From Hufsiella ginkgonis (GTDB lineage Bacteria; Bacteroidota; Bacteroidia; Sphingobacteriales; Sphingobacteriaceae), in NCBI RefSeq assembly GCF_009834915.1, contig NZ_WVHS01000006.1, positions 124,001 through 188,000 on the forward strand: DNA of 64,000 nt, in the 5' to 3' direction. Numbering within the stretch: the first letter of the stretch is position 1; the number at the start of each line of letters is the position of its first letter. The position numbers and the translations under genes were made by a program. Of the stretch, positions 14,556 through 24,615 are shown in pieces. The notes below the pieces were generated by a model, which saw only the letters and a program-made list of their open reading frames with translations, had not been told where the DNA came from and made no database searches.

Positions 14556-15878
14556 ATGCTTAAAGGATACCTGCTTGCTTTCCTGGTGTTTTTTTCGATG
14601 GTTTCCAAGGCGGCTTCCATCCTGATCCCGATGGATGAAACGCAAAAAAACCACCTGAAATCGTACGGTATTGCTTACTGGACGCTTAAACGCGACCTTG
14701 CGGTAGACTGGCTGCTGAACTATCGCGGCGGCAGTTTCCTGGTTAAGTATGCCGGGCCGGTAGAGAACGAATGTAAAGTACGTGGCGTTTCGTTCGAGGT
14801 GATCAGCGATGCCCGGGTAAATGCCATCCTTACTGAAATTTCGGCCCCGGAAGCCAATATGGAGATCGTGAAACTGGAGAAAGCTGCAAAAGTAGCCGTG
14901 TATTCGCCAAATAATACGTTTACCACGAAAGATTATACCGATGCGGTGATCACCGCGCTGAATTACGCAGAAATCCCGTACGACGTAATCTACGACGAAG
15001 CTGTTTTAAAAGGCGAGCTTGCCAAATATGAGTGGGTACACCTTCACCATGAAGATTTTACCGGGCAGCTGGGGCTTTCGATGCAGCGCATGTCTGAAGA
15101 CGACATCCGCATCCAGCGGGAAATTGCAAAGAAATTCGGTTACCCGCATGTTCCCGCCATGAAACTGGCGGTGGCGAGGGCGATCAGCAAATTCGTAGCC
15201 GGAGGCGGCTATCTCTTTGCCATGTGTTCGGCGGGCGAAACGCTCGACGTAGCCCTTGCGGCCGACGGCGCAGATATTGTCGACAGTGGCTTTGATGGCG
15301 ATGATGTAGACGTTAACGCCCAATCGAAACTCGATTTCAGCAAGGCGCTGGCCTTCCAAAATTTCCAGCTTGCGCTGAACAATTACCGCGGGTTTTCGAA
15401 CATCAATACCGGCAACGCGGGACGCGGCGATCCTTCAGGCGACTTTTTTACACTTTTCAGCTTCTCTGCCAAGTGGGATATCGTGGCTTCCATGCTTACC
15501 CAGGACCACGAGTTCGTGATCAAAGCCTTCAACGGGCAAACTACCGCCTTTAACAAGGCCGTACTGAAACCATCCACCCTGGTGCTCGGCGAAACGAAAG
15601 CTGCGGGTGCGGCGAGGTATATCCACGGCGAATTTGGCAACGGCCAATGGACCTATTACGGTGGTCACGATCCCGAAAGCGGGTTTGGACGAGGCGGACG
15701 AGGCGGGGGTTTCGGAGGAGGAGGCTTTGGCGGTTTTGGCAGCGGCGGCGGGAACTTCGGAGGCGGCGGGCCTGGTCGGGGAACCGACCTTAGCTTAACC
15801 CCTAACTCCCCGGGTTACCGGCTGATCCTGAATAATGTACTGTTTCCTTCCGCCAAGAAAAAGAAACAGAAAACTTAG
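14556..15878 (+). CDS. Conserved Bacteroidota secreted protein (often auto-named asparagine synthetase B) with glycine-rich insert
   Basis: The 440-residue product has a signal peptide (to about residue 20) and then ILIPMDETQKNHLKSYGIAYW, the start of a conserved Bacteroidota family that databases often call asparagine synthetase B. I see neither an N-terminal nucleophile cysteine nor an ATP-pyrophosphatase motif, so that name is not supported. A class-I-amidotransferase-like alpha/beta region (VAVYSPNNTFTTKDYTDAVITALN split over two strands, then HLHHEDFTGQ) is recognisable, as is the conserved end NSPGYRLILNNVLFP plus a Lys-rich tail. Residues 376-409 are almost entirely Gly/Phe/Arg (GFGRGGRGGGFGG and on), where relatives have a short acidic loop. 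It is transcribed divergently from the pectin cluster and ends exactly against recO. Its function is unknown. Confidence 0.8.
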   Translation: MLKGYLLAFLVFFSMVSKAASILIPMDETQKNHLKSYGIAYWTLKRDLAVDWLLNYRGGSFLVKYAGPVENECKVRGVSFEVISDARVNAILTEISAPEANMEIVKLEKAAKVAVYSPNNTFTTKDYTDAVITALNYAEIPYDVIYDEAVLKGELAKYEWVHLHHEDFTGQLGLSMQRMSEDDIRIQREIAKKFGYPHVPAMKLAVARAISKFVAGGGYLFAMCSAGETLDVALAADGADIVDSGFDGDDVDVNAQSKLDFSKALAFQNFQLALNNYRGFSNINTGNAGRGDPSGDFFTLFSFSAKWDIVASMLTQDHEFVIKAFNGQTTAFNKAVLKPSTLVLGETKAAGAARYIHGEFGNGQWTYYGGHDPESGFGRGGRGGGFGGGGFGGFGSGGGNFGGGGPGRGTDLSLTPNSPGYRLILNNVLFPSAKKKKQKT

Positions 15879-17359: not shown

Positions 17360-17832
17360 GTTGAGTCTATTTAGTTAAAACGTGATTTAAGGATATAGGT
17401 TTTAGCGTGCGGAAAATTGGTTGTTGCAAACATTAAATGTTGCCCGATCCATCGCTGCCCGCTGCCCTAAAGATACCAAATCGAACGCTTCCCCGTAACA
17501 GTTGTCGTGCAATATTCGCGGTGGCCCGATATTCGAAATCACCGGGATGCGGCAAAACCCCGGCAAAGCTTAAAGGTGTTTCCTACATATCGCGCCCGTA
17601 AAACTATGGCTATCATTGTATGACAGATCTGTTAAGAGGAGGCTAGTACTTTTTTTCTCATACGCTAATTTGAAAATATACGGCCTCCTCTTTTACTCCC
17701 TCACCCAAACCTACAACCTTATACAAGTTCAAAAAAAGCTGCCCCTGGCAGTCTTTATTCGGCTTAATTCGCGGGTAAGTTCCGGGTTTATGCATTATCC
17801 TGCTTAAATTGCGTGGATTATACCGCTTTGTC
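17360..17832. other. 473-base intergenic region with a perfect inverted repeat
   Basis: No convincing gene is seen here. Short open frames exist but have poor composition. The one marked structure is a perfect 10-base inverted repeat, AAGAGGAGGC at 17634-17643 and GCCTCCTCTT at 17683-17692, 39 bases apart. The two arms lie about 140-200 bases upstream of the glutamine-synthetase-like gene and could be an operator, a leader hairpin or the ends of a decayed small element. A 7-base word (CGCTGCC) is present twice in tandem near 17453. Confidence 0.5.
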
Positions 17833-19188
17833 ATGGATAAAGAACAGATCATACGTTACCTGCAGGAAAATGATATTCATAAAATAAAATTCGCCTTCGC
17901 CGATATCGACGGGATCCTGAGAGGGAAAATCATTCATCCAAAGAAGTTCCTTGATGGATTGGAATCCGGTTATGGTTTTTGCGACGTGGTGTTCGGCTGG
18001 GACAGCGGTGACGCATTATACGACGATGTAAAGATAACCGGCTGGCACACAGGCTACCCCGATCAGCCCTGCCGGATCGACCCCGATACTTTCCGCACCA
18101 TTCCCTGGCAGGAAAACATGCCTTTTTTCCTGGCAGATTTTAGCGGGTCGGCTGTTAACGCGCAGGTTTGCCCGCGCAGTTTACTGAAACGGATCGCGGC
18201 GGATGCCGGATCGATGGGTTATCATACCGAATTCGCACAGGAATTTGAGTGGTTCAATTTCAGGGAAACACCTGCGTCATTACAGGAAAAAGGATTTTCG
18301 CGCCTCGAAACGCTTACGCCCGGGATGTTCGGGTATTCGATCATACGTACCTCGCAGCACAGCGATTTTTACCTGGGACTATTTAACCAGCTGGCGGCTT
18401 TCGGTATCCCGCTGGAAGGGCTGCATACCGAAACAGGACCTGGTGTTTACGAAGGCGCCATTATACATGACGAGGTGCTGCGCGCTGCCGATAAAGCCGT
18501 ATTATTTAAAAATGCCGTTAAGGAAATTGCTTCCGTACATGGCATCGTAGCCTCTTTTATGGCCAAGTGGAACGTAAACCTCCCGGGATGCAGCGGCCAT
18601 ATCCACCAAAGCCTGTGGAACAGCGATCAAACGGAGAATCTTTTTTATGACGCCGGTGATCCGCTTTGCATGAGCGAAATCTTTAAGCATTACCTGGCAG
18701 GACAGCTGCATTGTTTACCTTATATTATGCCGATGTACGCCCCCACCATCAACAGTTATAAACGGTTGGTAGAAGGCGCATGGGCTCCAACTACCTGCTC
18801 GTGGGGTGTAGAAAACCGCACCGCCGCACACCGGGTGATCAATCCCTCGCCTGCCTATACCCGCCTGGAAACGCGGGTGCCTGGCTCCGACAGTAATCCT
18901 TACCTGGCGCTCGCCGCCGCGCTTGCCTCCGGCTTATACGGCATTAAAAACAAATTGCCGCTCACCCTTGCGGCTACCCGCGGCAATGCCTACCAGCAAG
19001 CCGGTAACGAACGGCTGCCGGCCAACCTGTATGAGGCCGCTACCGCGATGCAGCATTCTCCCCTCGCCAAAGAGCTCTTCGGCGAAACATTCACCGACCA
19101 TTTTACACGCACCCGGCTATGGGAATGGAAGAAGTTCTCCAGCGAAGTAACGGATTGGGAGATGAAGAGGTATTTTGAGATTATTTAA
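17833..19188 (+). CDS. Glutamine-synthetase-like (GS-I superfamily) ligase
   Basis: The 451-residue protein has the GS-I architecture. The N-terminal beta-grasp domain contains KFAFADIDGILRGK, and the catalytic domain has a first-shell glutamate in QEFEW, the LEGLHTETGPGVYEG segment, CSGHIHQSLW with His256/His258, PTINSYKRLVEGAW, ENRTAAHRV with Arg329/Arg334, and ETRVPGSDSNPYLA. It should ligate glutamate, via gamma-glutamyl phosphate, to ammonia or an amine. The CSWGVENRT and SYKRL forms resemble GlnA-like gamma-glutamyl-amine ligases (PuuA-type) more than housekeeping GS. I chose the second in-frame ATG, since the eight residues before it look non-conserved. It leads a four-gene operon with a kinase-like, a HAD and an MFS gene. 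The amine substrate is unknown. Confidence 0.85.
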   Translation: MDKEQIIRYLQENDIHKIKFAFADIDGILRGKIIHPKKFLDGLESGYGFCDVVFGWDSGDALYDDVKITGWHTGYPDQPCRIDPDTFRTIPWQENMPFFLADFSGSAVNAQVCPRSLLKRIAADAGSMGYHTEFAQEFEWFNFRETPASLQEKGFSRLETLTPGMFGYSIIRTSQHSDFYLGLFNQLAAFGIPLEGLHTETGPGVYEGAIIHDEVLRAADKAVLFKNAVKEIASVHGIVASFMAKWNVNLPGCSGHIHQSLWNSDQTENLFYDAGDPLCMSEIFKHYLAGQLHCLPYIMPMYAPTINSYKRLVEGAWAPTTCSWGVENRTAAHRVINPSPAYTRLETRVPGSDSNPYLALAAALASGLYGIKNKLPLTLAATRGNAYQQAGNERLPANLYEAATAMQHSPLAKELFGETFTDHFTRTRLWEWKKFSSEVTDWEMKRYFEII

Positions 19189-19191
19189 CGC

Positions 19192-20232
19192 ATGGATTAC
19201 TCCAATATCATAAAAAAAGCATGGGAAGGGTACGACGCTTCCAAATCTATCCATAAGATCGAAGACATTTCTGCGCAGGTTTCTACTAATCACGTGTTCA
19301 GGCTTACGTTTACCGACGGCGACATCGTAATTGCGAAGCTCTCGTATTTCGGCAAATATGAACACTTCCGCGAAGATCACCGCATTATCCACACCCTGTC
19401 TAACAACCTGTTATACCCGTTTGAGAACCTGCTTGCCAAATCGCTGTTAAAAAACAACCGGGTTTATACTTTCCGATATAAAAGAGGCAAAACGGATACC
19501 TGGGTGGTTTTTTATAATCCCATCCGGGTGCAGCAGCGGCTGCCGCGAAGGCTGGACGAAAGCCAGATCCGCAAACTGGGCCAGCAAACTGCAAAGTTCC
19601 ACAAGGCCTGCTCACGCGTTAAAAACGTGCTGCCTAAGTCTTCGAAAACGCTTCGCACGGATATCATCGCGCTTCGCGACCAGGTAGAGAAAGACCATCA
19701 GCGTTTTGGTACGGTCGCCCAGGGCGAATACATCAGGCATCATTGCGACCTGTTCCTTAAAAACCGGCTCAAATACAACGCAGGCGGGTTCCAAACCATC
19801 CCGGTATTTATCGACTGGAACATCGGTAACTTCTCGGTATCCGCCAACCAGAAGTTCTTCTCCAGGTGGGATTATGATTGGTTCCGCATGAGCAGCCGCA
19901 TGATGGACTTCTACTTCTTTAGCCGCGTGGTATCTGACGCCGGCGACCGCACCGTATTTAGTTACCTCGTTACCCCCATGATGGAGGAGCGATTCATCCT
20001 CTTCCTGGAAGAGTACCATAAGATCAACCCGCTTAGTGCAGACGAGCTCGGTTTTCTTGGCGAGGCTTACCGTTTCTTTATCCTTAACTACGTGATCAAG
20101 GACGGCAGCTACTTCTTTAACGATCAATACGCAAAGAAACTCCGGAACGAGGCGTTCGATATTTACCTTCCTTCCGTCGATACCGATTTTAATTCCGCAA
20201 CCCTGATAGAAGCCTTGAAACTCAAACCCTGA
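19192..20232 (+). CDS. APH/choline-kinase-fold phosphotransferase-like protein
   Basis: The 346-residue product looks like a small-molecule kinase of the aminoglycoside phosphotransferase fold. It shows an N-lobe with the lysine candidate IVIAKLSYFGKY, a catalytic loop FIDWNIGNFSV (Asp208, Asn213) and a metal-binding SRWDYDWF (Asp227, Asp229). The canonical His before the catalytic Asp is replaced by Ile (I-D-W-N). It begins three bases after the ligase stop and its own stop overlaps the start of the HAD gene (TGATG). The set ligase, kinase, HAD suggests chemistry on one metabolite through a phosphorylated intermediate. I cannot name the substrate; homoserine, choline or a sugar would all be possible for this fold. 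Confidence 0.72.
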   Translation: MDYSNIIKKAWEGYDASKSIHKIEDISAQVSTNHVFRLTFTDGDIVIAKLSYFGKYEHFREDHRIIHTLSNNLLYPFENLLAKSLLKNNRVYTFRYKRGKTDTWVVFYNPIRVQQRLPRRLDESQIRKLGQQTAKFHKACSRVKNVLPKSSKTLRTDIIALRDQVEKDHQRFGTVAQGEYIRHHCDLFLKNRLKYNAGGFQTIPVFIDWNIGNFSVSANQKFFSRWDYDWFRMSSRMMDFYFFSRVVSDAGDRTVFSYLVTPMMEERFILFLEEYHKINPLSADELGFLGEAYRFFILNYVIKDGSYFFNDQYAKKLRNEAFDIYLPSVDTDFNSATLIEALKLKP

Positions 20233-21080
20233 TGACTATGCAAACTACCTGCTTTAAAACGGTGTTGGAAAAATACCCGATCATTTTTTTTGACGGTTAT
20301 GGCGTTATTAAGAACTATAAAGGAATGGTGCCAGGTGTGGAGAAAACTTTCACTTGGATGCTAGAGCAGCAGAAGGAATATTACATTGTTACCAACGATG
20401 CGTCGCGCAGCCCCATGCAGCTGGCCGAATCATACCAGCGTCTTGGACTGCACATTGATCACGAACGCATCATATCCTCCGGCATGCTTGCCAAAGAATA
20501 CCTCGACCTGAAGGTTCACGACGGGATCGTAGCCTACCTCGGCACCGAGAATTCTGCCCATTATATCGAAAGTATGGGTCTGCATCCGCTGGCGGTGCGG
20601 GAGATCGACGAAACGAATATCGACCAGGTAAACGCGCTGTTATTTCTGGACGATGAAGGCTTCGACTGGAACTACGACCTTAATAAGACCCTTAACCTGC
20701 TTCGCAAGCGTACCATTCCCGCCATCGTGGCCAACACCGATTACGCTTACCCGGTGATGCAAAACGAGGTATCTATCGCCATTGGCGGCATCGCCTCGAT
20801 GATAGAAAACATTGCAGGTAAAGAGTTTATTCATTTCGGCAAACCGGATTCGCAGATGTTCATGTTCGCATATGACAAGATACGCGAAACACGTACCATC
20901 ACCAAGAAAGAGATCCTGATGGTTGGCGATACCCTGTACACCGATATTCTCGGCGGCAACAAATTCGGGCTCGACACGGTATTGGTGCTCTCGGGGAACA
21001 CGCAGCCGGAAGAAGCGGAAACCCTGATCAAAACAACGGGCATCGTTCCGACTTATATTTGTGATACCGCAGCGATATGA
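20232..21080 (+). CDS. HAD-superfamily protein, NagD-like class IIA, atypical motif I
   Basis: This 282-residue protein has the class IIA cap of NagD/AraL-type HAD proteins. Motif I is IIFFDGYGVIKN, with nucleophile Asp21, but the acid/base position two residues on is Tyr23, not Asp. Motif II is IVTNDASRS, motif III Lys lies in HFGKPDSQMF, and motif IV is MVGDTLYTDILGG. The other motifs are intact, so metal and phosphate binding are likely. Loss of the second Asp may slow phosphatase turnover or mark a subfamily with another mechanism. The gene overlaps the kinase-like gene before it and the MFS gene after it by a few bases, so all are one operon. Confidence 0.82.
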   Translation: MTMQTTCFKTVLEKYPIIFFDGYGVIKNYKGMVPGVEKTFTWMLEQQKEYYIVTNDASRSPMQLAESYQRLGLHIDHERIISSGMLAKEYLDLKVHDGIVAYLGTENSAHYIESMGLHPLAVREIDETNIDQVNALLFLDDEGFDWNYDLNKTLNLLRKRTIPAIVANTDYAYPVMQNEVSIAIGGIASMIENIAGKEFIHFGKPDSQMFMFAYDKIRETRTITKKEILMVGDTLYTDILGGNKFGLDTVLVLSGNTQPEEAETLIKTTGIVPTYICDTAAI

Positions 21081-22252
21081 CGACAAAAATACCCGCAACA
21101 TCCGCTATTTCGAAAAACACCATACGGTTCGCCTTATTCGGTTTCTTTTTTTGCCAGGGAATTTGCTTTGCATCGTGGGCCAGCCGCATCCCCGATCTTA
21201 AATTACTGCTTAAACTAAGTGAAGGCGAGCTTGGAAGCGTTTTACTCGCGCTGCCTGCGGGCCAGTTATGTACGCTCCCCTTTTCGGGAAAACTGGTTGC
21301 GCGGCTCGGCAGCAGGCAGGTAATGCTGTTCGCCGTACCGCTGTACTCGCTGGCATTGATCAATATCGGTTTTTCCTCCACTGCCTTGTACCTAACCGCA
21401 TCGCTGTTCCTCTTCGGCGTGGCAGGCAATATGGCAAACATTTCTATTAACACGCAGGGAGTTGCGGTGGAGAAGCTTTTCGGACGTCCCCTGATGGCGT
21501 CGTTTCATGGCGGATGGAGCCTTGCAGGCTTTACCGGCGCCGCGTTAGGCACGTTAATGATCTCCCTGAAGCTCCCACCTCACCAGCACTATTATTTTAT
21601 TTCGGCGCTGGTGTTCGTTATTGTGCTAACTGCCTCCCGGTACTTATTAAAAGGCAAACCGGCGCCGGCTGCCAAAAGGCCGCTTTTCTCCAAACCAGAC
21701 GGCTCATTGCTCCAACTTGGAGTGATCGGCTTTTGCTGCATGGCAGCCGAAGGGGCGATGTTCGATTGGAGCGGCGTCTACTTCCAGAAAGTAGTGATGG
21801 CGCCAACTGCTCTTATCACGCTCGGTTATGCCGCATTTATGTCGACCATGGCAGGTGGAAGGTTCGCCGGCGACCGGCTTGTTCACCGCTTCGGGCAACG
21901 CAAAATGATCCAGGCAAGCGGGGTCCTCATCGCCTCCGGGCTGGGGATCTCCATCCTGTTTCCGTATATCGTACCGGTCACTATTGGTTTTCTCATCACC
22001 GGGTTTGGCGTATCGTCTGTTATCCCCACGGTTTACAGCGCGGCGGGCAGGTCAAAGCTCGTTCCGCCAAGTATAGCGCTGGCATCGGTGTCGGGGGTCA
22101 GCTTTTTCGGGTTCCTGCTGGGGCCGCCGGTTATCGGGTACATTGCAGAGCTTTCAAACCTTCGCTATTCTTATGGATTCATCGCGATGCTTGGCTTTTG
22201 TACCACCATACTGGCTTCGCGCGCAGCGCTTATTCAGTCAAAAGCGTCCTGA
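21077..22252 (+). CDS. MFS transporter (YbjJ/FucP-like fold)
   Basis: The 391-residue integral membrane protein has about 12 hydrophobic helices. It opens with ALFGFFFCQGICFASWASRIPDLK split over helix 1 and the first loop, a pattern of the YbjJ-like MFS group (FASWxxRIPxLK). The loop 2-3 motif GKLVARLGSRQ and its second-half counterpart GRFAGDRLVHRFGQRK are typical MFS signatures. The start overlaps the HAD gene by four bases (ATGA). As the last gene of the ligase/kinase/HAD operon it may export the product or import the precursor. The 3' end overlaps the convergent HAD gene by 23 bases. Confidence 0.85.
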   Translation: MTTKIPATSAISKNTIRFALFGFFFCQGICFASWASRIPDLKLLLKLSEGELGSVLLALPAGQLCTLPFSGKLVARLGSRQVMLFAVPLYSLALINIGFSSTALYLTASLFLFGVAGNMANISINTQGVAVEKLFGRPLMASFHGGWSLAGFTGAALGTLMISLKLPPHQHYYFISALVFVIVLTASRYLLKGKPAPAAKRPLFSKPDGSLLQLGVIGFCCMAAEGAMFDWSGVYFQKVVMAPTALITLGYAAFMSTMAGGRFAGDRLVHRFGQRKMIQASGVLIASGLGISILFPYIVPVTIGFLITGFGVSSVIPTVYSAAGRSKLVPPSIALASVSGVSFFGFLLGPPVIGYIAELSNLRYSYGFIAMLGFCTTILASRAALIQSKAS

Positions 22253-22904
22253 CGAACGGATCGTTGTAGTCTTTAACGAAAGCCAGGATATTCGGCAAAT
22301 CACCGAATTCGTGCTCTTCGTGCATGGTGGTAAGTACTACCGAATTCATCCCGGCACGCAAAGCGGCTTCAACGCCTTTTGGATTGTCTTCAAAAACGAT
22401 ACAATTTTCGGGATCTATGCCGAGCATTTCCGCGGCTTTCAGGAACGTTTCGGGATGAGGTTTGCTGATCTGCACGTCATTGGCGCTAACCGCCACGGGA
22501 ATAAACGGGCGCAGGTCCAGGTTATCCAGGATAAAATCGACGTTAAATGTGATCGCGGCAGAGCCGATCGCCATCGGGATAAGCTGCCGATGGGCTTCCT
22601 CCAGGAACGTGCCGAGACCGTCGATCAGTTTCAGGTGCGGCCGGAAAGCTTCCTGGTAACGATGCTCTTTTTCCATAGAAATCTTTCCCATCTCTTCGTT
22701 GGTAAACCTGCCTTCTCCAAAAACGCGCACGAGCAATTCCTCGTTCTTACCATACATCTGCAATTTCACCTCTTCTTTGGTCAGATCGGCGCCCAGGTCT
22801 TTGGTCAGGATCCCATGCCAGGCATCGGTGTGAAAACCCATGTCGTCGATCATGGTCCCGTTCAGGTCGAATATAAAGGCTTTGCTTAGCGGCGTAGTTG
22901 TCAT
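22230..22904 (-). CDS. HAD hydrolase, beta-phosphoglucomutase-like, with DxN motif I
   Basis: The 224-residue protein belongs to the HAD subfamily with a helical C1 cap. Motif I is FDLNGTMIDD: Asp13 is the nucleophile, but the acid/base position is Asn15 instead of Asp. Motif II Ser is in PMAIGSAA, motif III Lys in ISKPHPETF, and motif IV in CIVFEDNPKGVEAA. Relatives act as beta-phosphoglucomutases or sugar-phosphate phosphatases. The Asn makes either activity uncertain, although FDxNG forms are common in Bacteroidota. It is convergent with the MFS gene and is separated from the next gene by an 85-base divergent spacer. Confidence 0.82.
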   Translation of the reverse strand: MTTTPLSKAFIFDLNGTMIDDMGFHTDAWHGILTKDLGADLTKEEVKLQMYGKNEELLVRVFGEGRFTNEEMGKISMEKEHRYQEAFRPHLKLIDGLGTFLEEAHRQLIPMAIGSAAITFNVDFILDNLDLRPFIPVAVSANDVQISKPHPETFLKAAEMLGIDPENCIVFEDNPKGVEAALRAGMNSVVLTTMHEEHEFGDLPNILAFVKDYNDPFVRTLLTE

Positions 22905-22989
22905 GCCGGTAAAGGTAAAGGTTTAACCGTGAACTATCCCGCCGCTCTCGTTCAAAATCATTATTTTACACCCCGTTAATTACTTGCGT

Positions 22990-24615
22990 ATGCACCGTTT
23001 GCCAGGACTTTTGTTTATTTCCGCTCTCTTTTTTGCAGGGTGCAGCGCTCCTTCTCCAGATAGCAGGAAAGTATTTAACATCAACCTCGAACAGGGCCTT
23101 ACCTCGCTCGATCCCGCGTTCGCGCGCAACCAGTTTGCTATATGGATGGATAACCAGCTTTATAACGGGCTGGTACAGGTAGACGACGACCTCAAAACAG
23201 TTCCGGCCATCGCTAAAAGCTGGGAGCTGTCACCCGATGGGAAACGATATACCTTTCACCTCCGGAAGGATGTGTATTTTCACGACGATCCGCTTTTCAG
23301 GAACGGCAAAGGCCGAAGGGTAACAGGGCCCGACTTCGTTTACAGCTTTGGAAGGATCATCGACCCGCTCGTGGCCTCTTCCGGCGGCTGGATCTTTAAC
23401 GGCAAGGTAAGCGGTAAGGAAGCCTTTGCGGCCCCCAACGACTCTACCTTCATTGTGAACCTGCGAAACCCGTTCCCTCCTTTCCTGAGTATGCTGACCG
23501 CCCAGTATTGTTCGGTTGTTCCGCACGAGGTAGCCGACCATTACGGCAAAGATTTGAGGAGCCACCCCGTTGGGACCGGACCCTTTAAGTTTAAGTATTG
23601 GAAAGAAGGCGAGATCCTGGTGCTGCTAAAGAATGAAAATTACTGGGAAAAAGACAAGAATGGCAACCGCCTCCCCTACCTCGACGCGGTAAAAGCATCC
23701 TTTATTTCGGATAAACAGACAGCATTCATGGAGTTTCTCAAAAATAACCTCGACTTTTTTAATAGTCTTGACGGGAGCTTCCGCGACGACCTGCTCACTA
23801 AATCCGGCCGACCGACAAAAAAATATGCGGGTAAGTTCCGCATGATCACCAATCCTTTTCTCAATACCGAATACCTGGGTATGCTGGTGGATACAAGTTT
23901 TTCTATCGTAAAGAATTCGCCTTTAAAAGATATACGCATCCGCAAGGCGATTAATTACGCCATCGACAAGAAGAAATTGGTTAAGTACCTGCGTAACAGC
24001 ATCGGGTCGCCCGGGCATTCGGGGTTTGTCCCTAAAGGGATGCCCGGCTTTAACGCTGATAGCGTGAGCGGTTATTCCTACAACCCCGAAAAGGCACGCG
24101 AGCTGTTGGCGGCGGCAGGTTACCCCAACGGAAAGAACATGCCCCCGGTATTGCTCCAGACCAGCACCACCTATAAAGACCTGATCGAATTCGTACAGGG
24201 TGAACTGGCCGCGATCGGCATCAACTGCCGTGTTGAAGTAAACCAGACCAGCAGCCTGCGCGACCTGATCGCGAAAAACAGCGTTAACTTCTTCCGCGGT
24301 TCCTGGATCGCGGATTACCCGGACGCCGAGAACTATCTTTCGGTATTCTACTCAAAGAATTATGTCCCCGTTGGCCCCAACTACACCAGCTTTAAAAACA
24401 AGCAATTCGATGCGCTTTTTGAAAAAGCTTATTTTGTAACAAATGATGAGGAACGGTTCCGGCTATACCGAAAAATGGACAATATCGTAATGGACCAGGC
24501 GCCGGTGGTGGTATTATTCTATGACCAGTTATTTAACCTCTACCAGAACAACATCAGCGGCTACAGCGTAAACGCAGAAAACCTGCTGATACTAAAGCGA
24601 ATAAAAAAGAAATAA
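22990..24615 (+). CDS. ABC-type solute-binding lipoprotein, family 5 (peptide/nickel type)
   Basis: This 541-residue lipoprotein belongs to the OppA/DppA family of extracellular solute-binding proteins. The signal peptide ends in Phe-Ala-Gly-Cys at residue 18. The lobe-1 entry LTSLDPAFARNQFAIWMDNQLYNGL and KSWELSPDGKRYTFHLRKDVYFHDD segments (each typical SBP_bac_5 text) and the later DIRIRKAINYAIDKKKL are diagnostic. It would bind oligopeptides or similar ligands at the membrane surface. No permease or ATPase genes lie beside it, so it either works with a distant ABC system or is an orphan. I start at the ATG at 22990; a TTG two codons earlier is also open. Confidence 0.87.
   Translation: MHRLPGLLFISALFFAGCSAPSPDSRKVFNINLEQGLTSLDPAFARNQFAIWMDNQLYNGLVQVDDDLKTVPAIAKSWELSPDGKRYTFHLRKDVYFHDDPLFRNGKGRRVTGPDFVYSFGRIIDPLVASSGGWIFNGKVSGKEAFAAPNDSTFIVNLRNPFPPFLSMLTAQYCSVVPHEVADHYGKDLRSHPVGTGPFKFKYWKEGEILVLLKNENYWEKDKNGNRLPYLDAVKASFISDKQTAFMEFLKNNLDFFNSLDGSFRDDLLTKSGRPTKKYAGKFRMITNPFLNTEYLGMLVDTSFSIVKNSPLKDIRIRKAINYAIDKKKLVKYLRNSIGSPGHSGFVPKGMPGFNADSVSGYSYNPEKARELLAAAGYPNGKNMPPVLLQTSTTYKDLIEFVQGELAAIGINCRVEVNQTSSLRDLIAKNSVNFFRGSWIADYPDAENYLSVFYSKNYVPVGPNYTSFKNKQFDALFEKAYFVTNDEERFRLYRKMDNIVMDQAPVVVLFYDQLFNLYQNNISGYSVNAENLLILKRIKKK

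Follow-up and report, generated by a model that had tools for sequence, protein, structure and literature searches.

Do the four tightly packed genes between positions 17833 and 22252 of the window form one metabolic route, and on which compound would they act? The window is a stretch of 64,000 nucleotides from Hufsiella ginkgonis. All four genes lie on its plus strand and encode, in order, a glutamine synthetase (GS)-like protein, a kinase, a HAD protein and an MFS transporter. The initial annotation had read them as a complete route, in which an amine is glutamylated or activated, phosphate is added or removed, and the compound is exported or imported.

Gene arrangement

The GS-like gene (17833..19188, plus strand, 451 aa) starts with ATG at 17833; the frame is open from a TTG at 17809. 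It is followed after 3 nt by the kinase gene (19192..20232, plus strand, 346 aa). The kinase gene overlaps the HAD gene (20232..21080, plus strand, 282 aa) by 1 nt, and the HAD gene overlaps the MFS gene (21077..22252, plus strand, 391 aa) by 4 nt; the same layout had been noted before as a gap of three bases and two overlaps. Earlier assignments to the GS-like, HAD and MFS families are borne out by matches to Gln-synt_C (4.3e-94), to the HAD-IIA model TIGR01460 (138.5 bits against a cutoff of 100.15) and to MFS_1 (PF07690; 2.3e-20, 73.2 bits against a cutoff of 33.4). A beta-PGM-type HAD gene is found on the opposite strand (22230-22904); it was not counted into the cassette. A literature search for the gene set gave no match among titles and abstracts.

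Distribution among Bacteroidota

Gene occurrence was counted in 296 Bacteroidota genomes, separate searches being treated as one draw because the genomes listed in them agree. In addition, 107 loci were inspected: 27 sampled loci, and 80 named loci kept from at least 528. Titles of 57 of the 80 named loci read Mucilaginibacter. Two named loci, L096 and L134, are likely duplicates of the sampled L032 and L033; hence the 107 loci include two likely duplicates.

The kinase and the HAD protein are a strict pair and constitute the inseparable unit of the cassette. Both occur in the same 36 of the 296 genomes, and their genes are adjacent in 35 of these. A GS-like ortholog is present in 30 of the 36 pair genomes against 4 of the remaining 260. 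In 29 genomes, H. ginkgonis among them, the GS-like gene is directly upstream of the kinase gene with the HAD gene downstream (2.3 kb distant in one case); these genomes span the class of the window and another class. Since 29 of 296 genomes show this arrangement, it is more than chance; the genes are real. Among the named loci, the GS-like gene is next to the kinase gene in 69 of 80. An adjacent GS ortholog is missing from seven pair genomes. Six of these have no ortholog at all; in the other (G126), it lies on a separate contig, inside an ethanolamine operon. Four genomes have the GS ortholog without the pair, and in all four it is part of an ethanolamine-type operon.

The MFS gene does not appear to belong to the recurring set. 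No MFS match was found around the kinase gene in the 27 sampled or the 80 named loci, of which L056 and several named ones are truncated by contig ends; in 16 relatives the MFS homologue is encoded away from the cassette. The gene looks like a local addition. Co-occurrence, which had been proposed as a check on the four-gene reading, is thus seen in Bacteroidota for the GS-like, kinase and HAD genes; the MFS gene stands beside them in this genome only. The recurring cassette consists of three of the four genes.

The glutamine synthetase gene glnA is a frequent neighbour. In 70 of the 107 loci (a count that includes the two likely duplicates) it is found at most 5 kb upstream, on the same strand; it is not near 16 of the 27 sampled loci. 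Three loci without the GS-like gene (L050, L053 and L056) have glnA directly before the kinase gene, at 169-375 nt. UbiA, MenC-like and AMP-binding (menaquinone-type) genes were considered as further cassette members and rejected. Since they occur in 7 or 8 of 28 loci, are missing from the others and vary in orientation, they were taken as chance synteny. A tblastn search with the kinase against 72,556 plasmid records gave no match.

The GS-like enzyme

The GS-like protein misses the cutoffs of three GS models. It scores 222.8 bits against an equivalog cutoff of 429.15 for GlnA (TIGR00653), a shortfall of 206 bits, and 201.5 against one of 650 for PuuA (NF045547); it is also below the GlnT cutoff. 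The PuuA score speaks against a Puu-type pathway. The best solved-structure match is 11zs, followed by 5dm3, which we take to be from Chromohalobacter salexigens.

Cassette enzymes were aligned from 21 of the 29 genomes with the GS-like gene directly upstream of the kinase gene; 20 of the 21 (all except L052) entered the tree and the site table. E137, E139, E200, E207, H256, H258, R311, R329, R334, E346 and R348 are identical in all 20. Proline occupies the position of GSI N264, and the other listed metal, glutamate and ATP positions are kept. Around GSI D50 the alignment is uncertain; as it stands, it places Asp at that position in 16 of 20 cassette enzymes and in all five of the ethanolamine-operon enzymes. 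The ammonium-site Glu (E327 of the GSI flap) is replaced by Trp in all 93 GS homologues read in the loci; in the window protein this is W317 (codon 18781..18783, plus strand). E. coli GlnA has Glu at this position and PuuA has Tyr. The protein shows the GlnA4-type pattern, in which metal, glutamate and ATP residues are kept and a nonpolar aromatic residue stands for E327. According to PMC6529630, the flap residue is Trp in PauA7 and Phe in GlnA4.

With Trp in place of the ammonium-site Glu in every homologue read, glutamine synthetase activity is unlikely for this enzyme; the genome carries a separate, GSII-type glnA. The earlier assignment as a glutamate-amine ligase is supported, and an ordinary glutamine synthetase, which had been named as one outcome that would count against the four-gene reading, is disfavoured by the sequence.

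The probable amine is indicated by gene context. In five genomes, GS orthologs (58-61% identity) are found in an operon of permease, GS, Fe-ADH, a C26 gamma-glutamyl-hydrolase-like protein and ALDH. The same layout has been proposed for ethanolamine in Streptomyces, and an ethanolamine glutamylation route has been predicted in C. salexigens (both PMC6529630). By this analogy in layout, the acceptor is most likely ethanolamine or a closely related amino alcohol; the window protein is a probable ligase of glutamate with ethanolamine or an amine like it. One of the five operon permeases was scored; at 438.5 it passes the ethanolamine permease cutoff of 381.75. In the tree, the five ethanolamine-operon enzymes form a single clade (98/91) nested in a group of 25 rows (98/95), to which the cassette enzymes also belong. 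The order within this group is not resolved; the well-supported branches are compatible with the cassette enzymes as a group of their own. Two positions alone separate the two sets in the site table at the thresholds used.

The remaining genes of the ethanolamine-type operon do not accompany the cassette. No oxidising gene is present in it, and no alcohol dehydrogenase, aldehyde dehydrogenase, hydrolase or permease gene lies beside the GS-like gene of the window. A single C26 hydrolase query gave no match in this genome; it matched at E values under 1e-10 in 12 of the 36 pair genomes. Only eight of the 36 encode a permease like that of the ethanolamine operon (E 1e-30); ethanolamine uptake by such a permease is thus not tied to the cassette. 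H. ginkgonis encodes EutB, EutC and an ethanolamine-type permease elsewhere in its genome, so ethanolamine use there would not depend on the cassette route. A literature search for an ethanolamine glutamylation cluster in flavobacteria listed PMC6529630 and PMC9397018 and led no further; the passages of PMC7500099 concern aniline.

The kinase

The window kinase has no Pfam or NCBIfam match; Pfam APH (PF01636) is among the families it does not match. Among 28 kinase members (one from each of 28 of the 36 pair genomes), APH was reported for two, with a best E of 0.0091, in a search limited to E 1 whose filters drop most matches above 0.1. A kinase profile searched against the sequences of solved structures gave a best E of 0.76. 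The label "APH-like" in the initial annotation is supported by the predicted fold and by no family profile for the window protein. The AlphaFold2 model (pLDDT 89) aligns to homoserine kinase, amicoumacin kinase, N-acetylhexosamine kinase and APH(2'') with a VIA-align Z of about 20; the top matches of this predicted model reach 20.6 over 298 and 310 aligned residues. As judged from the model, the protein has the aminoglycoside/choline-kinase fold. Sugar, amino-acid and antibiotic kinases are all among its fold neighbours, and their Z values are tied.

Four residues (K49, D208, N213 and D227) are invariant in 28 of 28 aligned kinases. We tentatively read D208 and N213 as the catalytic Asp and metal-binding Asn of an Asp-x4-Asn motif (D208-W-N-I-G-N213; 19813..19830, plus strand), and K49 and D227 presumably represent the Lys and the metal-binding Asp of the APH/choline-kinase motif. 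The presumed catalytic Asp is preceded by Phe, where His is usual.

The HAD protein

The HAD protein is an ortholog of 2hx1 of Cytophaga hutchinsonii (sequence match E 3.7e-121). Its model has a TM-score of 0.95 to 2hx1, 0.84 to chronophin and 0.78 to LHPP. It does not reach the cutoff of TIGR01458, which we take to be the LHPP model (45.7 against 175.95 bits). A literature search for 2hx1 and C. hutchinsonii found no paper on function.

HADs were aligned from 27 of the 28 loci of the kinase alignment; the exception is L055, where the longest ORF overlaps that of the kinase. Motif I reads D-x-[FY] in 27 of 27 aligned HADs and in 105 of the 107 loci, the other two not being read. In the window protein it is D21-G-Y23 (20292..20300, plus strand); the nucleophile is kept and the general-acid Asp at +2 is replaced. 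T54, K204, D233 and D238 are invariant in 27 of 27, and motifs II, III and IV are intact. The motif I of haloacid dehalogenases resembles D-x-Y; P-type ATPases carry Thr at the +2 place. The passages of PMC8490876 give no motif for haloacid dehalogenases. HAD phosphatases are described in PMC8069645 and PMC6321591 as having a DxD motif I with the general-acid Asp at +2. Because this Asp is missing, it is doubtful that the protein is an ordinary phosphatase, and the phosphate addition or removal suggested earlier is doubtful for this partner as well.

Proposed pathway and alternatives

From the observed gene order, co-occurrence, residue changes and predicted folds, we infer a route in which every substrate and the order of steps are provisional. 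The best overall explanation, which is favoured tentatively and falls short of being probable, combines amino-alcohol glutamylation by the GS-like enzyme with phosphate chemistry by the kinase and the HAD protein. The GS-like enzyme would ligate glutamate, through its gamma-carboxyl and at the cost of ATP, to a small amino alcohol; this is most likely ethanolamine, and the product would then be gamma-glutamyl-ethanolamide. The adjacent kinase would be an active small-molecule alcohol kinase that phosphorylates the hydroxyl of the amino alcohol or of the glutamyl amide. Its constant partner, the HAD protein, keeps the Asp nucleophile, Mg site, Thr and Lys and has an aromatic residue in place of the general acid. 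Its substrate may be a phosphorylated compound that can release its leaving group without protonation (an anhydride, an acyl phosphate or a P-N bond); alternatively, it may cleave a bond other than to phosphate. Together, the three enzymes would hold the amine in a glutamylated, phosphorylated pool, which the frequent presence of glnA would link to nitrogen assimilation. The MFS protein would be a transporter whose gene was recruited to the operon in this lineage. A more specific proposal is that the kinase and the acid-less HAD are a new two-protein phospho-module of Bacteroidota, in which the kinase phosphorylates a gamma-glutamyl amino alcohol and the HAD hydrolyses or transfers the product without a general acid; this is rather unlikely.

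The pair may instead be an independent module acting on another phosphorylated metabolite, such as a sugar or amino-acid derivative; its genes would be co-transcribed with the GS-like gene and glnA in response to nitrogen but would serve a separate pathway. This is possible, if somewhat doubtful. The six pair genomes without a GS ortholog, the one with it elsewhere, the four GS orthologs found without the pair in ethanolamine-type operons and the breadth of the kinase fold neighbours are consistent with it; the GS-like gene directly upstream in 29 of 36 pair genomes from two classes, and adjacent in 69 of 80 named loci, argues against it. The pair could also be a phosphorylation switch of the GS-type enzymes: phosphate would be placed on the GS-like protein or on GlnA by the kinase, and taken off or sensed by the HAD. 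In favour of this, many loci have glnA close to the cassette, and in three that lack the GS-like gene it comes directly before the kinase gene; moreover, if the HAD were an ordinary phosphatase of the compound that the kinase phosphorylates, the pair would run a futile cycle. However, the fold neighbours of the kinase are small-molecule kinases, HADs of the NagD clade reportedly have small-molecule substrates (PMC11277029), 16 of the 27 sampled loci have no glnA nearby and the +2 Asp of HAD phosphatases is missing. A switch is therefore improbable.

The original reading of one complete four-gene route, with export or import by the MFS protein and ordinary addition and removal of phosphate, is quite improbable. 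The genes do overlap in this genome, but no MFS match was found at the sampled and named loci (some of them truncated by contig ends), the relatives keep their homologues elsewhere and the HAD has no phosphatase general acid. It is very improbable that the first gene encodes an ordinary glutamine synthetase. The catalytic domain family is matched, most metal, glutamate and ATP positions are kept and Asp aligns at the D50 position; against this stand the GlnA shortfall, the invariant Trp, the separate GSII-type glnA and the orthologs in ethanolamine-type operons.

The preferred reading, amino-alcohol glutamylation coupled to phosphate chemistry, supplies a testable acceptor class for this GS-like family of Bacteroidota, and an ethanolamine glutamylation operon is indicated in the phylum. 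The kinase family is unrecognised by Pfam, and in the 296 genomes it is found only together with the HAD. For this partner a solved structure exists (2hx1), and its catalytic motif is one that would impair an ordinary phosphatase; the role of an acid-less HAD beside a kinase is a well-posed biochemical question. If true, the phospho-module would add to amine and nitrogen metabolism a previously undescribed branch that combines glutamylation with phosphorylation.

Comparison with known systems

The kinase resembles several members of the APH/choline kinase superfamily over nearly its full length: homoserine kinase 2ppq, amicoumacin kinase 6sum, N-acetylhexosamine 1-kinase 4ocj, YihE 1zyl and aminopropanol kinase 6ef6 (Z 19.5-20.6, predicted model). 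It differs from them in sequence, with 10-16% identity in the alignments.

The HAD protein and 2hx1, a "possible sugar phosphatase" by its structure entry, share 65% identity in the structural alignment; motif I of 2hx1 is D-A-F. LHPP, also of the HAD-IIA type, acts on phospholysine, phosphohistidine and pyrophosphate. The two proteins share the fold and the replacement of the +2 Asp of motif I, which is Ser in LHPP (PMC11277029). In contrast, the window protein has an aromatic residue there, and identity to LHPP is 17%.

PuuA, the gamma-glutamylputrescine synthetase of E. coli, shares with the GS-like enzyme the GS superfamily and an ammonium flap without Glu. Unlike PuuA, the window protein falls far below the PuuA cutoff, and no Puu genes adjoin it.

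A close parallel is the GlnA4 gamma-glutamylethanolamide synthetase pathway of Streptomyces coelicolor. Both have a GS-like ligase in which an aromatic residue replaces the ammonium Glu (PMC6529630), and orthologs of the window enzyme adjoin permease, alcohol dehydrogenase, aldehyde dehydrogenase and hydrolase genes. Unlike the GlnA4 pathway, the window cassette has no oxidising or hydrolysing genes; the kinase and HAD genes stand in their place.

Gene organisation

The initial annotation described four tightly packed genes on one strand, encoding a glutamine synthetase (GS)-like ligase, a kinase, a HAD protein and an MFS transporter; coordinates and spacing bear this out, and three of the four have family matches. 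The GS-like gene (17833-19188, forward strand) matches Gln-synt_C above cutoff; 3 nt separate it from the kinase gene (19192-20232, forward), which has no Pfam or NCBIfam match. In the window sequence, the HAD gene (20232-21080, forward; HAD-IIA above cutoff) overlaps the kinase gene by 1 nt and the MFS gene (21077-22252, forward; MFS_1 above cutoff) by 4 nt.

A beta-phosphoglucomutase-type HAD gene (22230-22904, reverse strand) is convergent with the MFS gene and overlaps its 3' end by 23 nt. Downstream of the four genes, an SBP_bac_5 gene (oligopeptide-binding type; 22984-24615, forward) encodes a protein whose start resembles that of a lipoprotein. A 440-aa protein with a Gly-rich tail, encoded at 14556-15878 (forward), has no Pfam or NCBIfam match.

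Recurrence in Bacteroidota

The kinase protein was used as a query against 296 Bacteroidota genomes, that of the window among them. It is found in 36 genomes, in one copy each (every E < 1e-100), and the HAD protein is found in exactly the same 36 (E 1e-40). Kinase is followed by HAD on one strand, with a gap of at most 265 nt, in 35 of these pair genomes; in the remaining one the two genes stand 2.3 kb from each other. Of the 296 genomes, 34 have a GS ortholog (54% identity or more): it occurs in 30 pair genomes out of 36, against 4 of the 260 that lack the pair; six pair genomes have none. It lies directly upstream of the kinase gene in 29 pair genomes, with a spacing of 6-194 nt (once 625 nt), and in genome G126 it sits on a different contig from the pair. 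Fisher tests of co-occurrence are extreme; the genomes are related, so these p-values are not probabilities. A second large group of pair genomes (f23) belongs to a class other than that of the window.

Across the 80 named loci (of at least 528) whose kinase is nearest to that of the window, 57 of them with Mucilaginibacter in the title, GS adjoins in 69 and HAD in 78 under a 700-nt rule. Of the 11 loci without adjacent GS, three end at a contig end, three have GS 709-781 nt upstream on the same strand, one carries it on the other strand, and none was seen in four. One of the two loci without adjacent HAD ends at a contig end; the other has HAD about 1.4 kb off.

Joint recurrence of all four families, as first envisaged, holds in the 296 Bacteroidota genomes for GS, kinase and HAD; the MFS gene did not recur with them in the loci compared. 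No MFS match occurs in the 27 sampled loci, up to 18 kb each (E 1e-3), or in any named locus (E 1e-5), 107 loci altogether. MFS homologues are present in 61/296 genomes (E 1e-40). In 16 relatives whose surroundings were read, the cassette genes (GS, kinase and HAD) are not beside them; their neighbours are mostly unlike, with one neighbour family in 3/16 and one gene order common to two genomes of one genus. A second genome of the window's genus was not found among the 60 relatives compared for this gene.

GS-like enzyme

The ligase is very probably not an ordinary glutamine synthetase, in agreement with the initial annotation: it scores far under the equivalog cutoffs of GlnA, GlnT and PuuA, and the ammonium-flap Glu is replaced by Trp. 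Residues were read in an alignment with E. coli GlnA of 20 cassette enzymes and five from ethanolamine-type operons. The listed metal, glutamate and ATP positions are identical in all 20 cassette enzymes except the N264 position, which is Pro. The flap Trp (W317) is found in all 20, in all five ethanolamine-operon enzymes and in each of the 93 GS homologues read from the loci. Phe stands at the Tyr-179 position. According to PMC6529630, PauA7 carries Trp and GlnA4 Phe at the flap position, and loss of E327 and D50 is a sign of amine ligases. The D50 position aligns as Asp in 16/20 cassette and 5/5 ethanolamine-operon enzymes, which counts against the amine-ligase sign; the alignment around this position is uncertain.

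Kinase and HAD protein

The kinase family is unrecognised by Pfam and NCBIfam models; of its 28 members, two give a Pfam APH match, the better one at E 0.0091. The 27 homologues share 47-73% identity with the window protein, and a profile search against sequences of solved structures found no relative. Almost all of the AlphaFold2 model (pLDDT 89) matches the aminoglycoside/choline kinase fold. Z values are tied or nearly so for homoserine kinase 2ppq and amicoumacin kinase 6sum (both 20.6), N-acetylhexosamine kinase 4ocj (20.3), YihE 1zyl (20.2) and aminopropanol kinase 6ef6 (19.5), and they point to no particular substrate. K49, D208, N213 and D227, presumed to be catalytic from the motifs of this fold, are invariant among aligned members.

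The HAD protein is an ortholog of 2hx1 (model TM-score 0.95, 65% identity), a Cytophaga hutchinsonii structure named only 'possible sugar phosphatase'. Motif I reads D-x-[FY]-G-V in 27/27 aligned proteins and in 105 of 107 loci, the other two not being read. HAD phosphatases are defined by D-x-D, the second Asp being the general acid-base, in the relevant parts of PMC8069645 and PMC6321591; at the equivalent site of the alignment, chronophin reads D-C-D. Loss of this general acid argues against an ordinary phosphomonoesterase, while intact motifs II, III and IV argue against a dead protein. LHPP likewise lacks the second Asp (Ser there) and, according to the portion of PMC11277029 concerned, acts on phospholysine, phosphohistidine and pyrophosphate.

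Ethanolamine-type operons

Five genomes share a layout of permease, GS, iron-containing alcohol dehydrogenase, Peptidase_C26 (PuuD-like) hydrolase and aldehyde dehydrogenase (loci L183, L184, L185, L186 and L194). G033, G091, G150 and G162 have a GS ortholog and no pair; G126 has the pair elsewhere. Hydrolase and aldehyde dehydrogenase form one 699-aa ORF in G033 (L183), whose permease, the single one of the five tested against NCBIfam, is above the ethanolamine permease cutoff.

Maximum-likelihood analysis places the five operon enzymes in one clade (98/91), and this clade and all 20 cassette enzymes make up a 25-row group (98/95), with more distant GS homologues outside. Branching inside this group is unresolved: of 200 bootstrap trees, 4% unite the cassette enzymes as a single group, and such a group is still compatible with the well-supported branches alone. 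At the thresholds used, only positions 336 (Ile/Leu) and 350 (mostly Pro/Val) separate the two sets. Because of the shared group, the two separating positions and the operon layout, we think that the cassette GS accepts the same amine or a similar one, either ethanolamine or some other amino alcohol.

Five of the six ortholog-less pair genomes, and two further genomes, carry GS homologues of 33-36% identity (L187-L193); an aldehyde dehydrogenase is nearby in 6/7 loci. L187 and L188 have a permease resembling that of the five operons; L187 additionally has a short-chain dehydrogenase and a GATase-type protein. In another observation, contig G190:C65 of a pair genome without GS ortholog carries a permease (171947-173290) 55% identical to the ethanolamine-operon permease, about 13 kb from the pair (about 186-188 kb, L036).

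Genomic context

A GSII-type glnA is found in 61/80 named and 11/27 sampled loci, and in 70/107 it lies no more than 5 kb upstream, in the same orientation. It directly precedes the pair, by 169-375 nt, in three sampled loci without a GS-like gene (L050, L053, L056). The window's genome has glnA on another contig. Also on another contig (L195:5874-9354) are an ethanolamine-type permease and then the ethanolamine ammonia-lyase genes EutB and EutC, which give this genome a second ethanolamine route; one C26 hydrolase query gave no match in the genome.

A permease of the ethanolamine-operon kind is present in 8 of the 36 pair genomes (E 1e-30) and a C26 hydrolase match below E 1e-10 in 12; the cassette is therefore not bound to these catabolic genes. 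Its role may be storage or buffering, or it may act on another amino alcohol.

Proposed pathway and known systems

From gene order, co-occurrence, residues and predicted folds, we infer substrates and an order of steps. GS would very probably form a gamma-glutamyl amide, with ethanolamine or another amino alcohol the slightly favoured acceptor. The kinase might then, tentatively, phosphorylate the hydroxyl of this amide or of the free amine. More tentatively still, the HAD protein could act on a phosphorylated product that carries a good leaving group, or else on a bond of non-phosphate type.

Among openly licensed literature, no paper was found on the gene set or the kinase-HAD pair. The GS belongs to the gamma-glutamyl-amine ligases, a kind already known. 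In the part of PMC6529630 on ethanolamine, a Streptomyces route is proposed in which glutamylation by GlnA4 is followed by oxidation to gamma-glutamylglycine and hydrolysis to glutamate and glycine; the five Bacteroidota operons resemble this proposed route.
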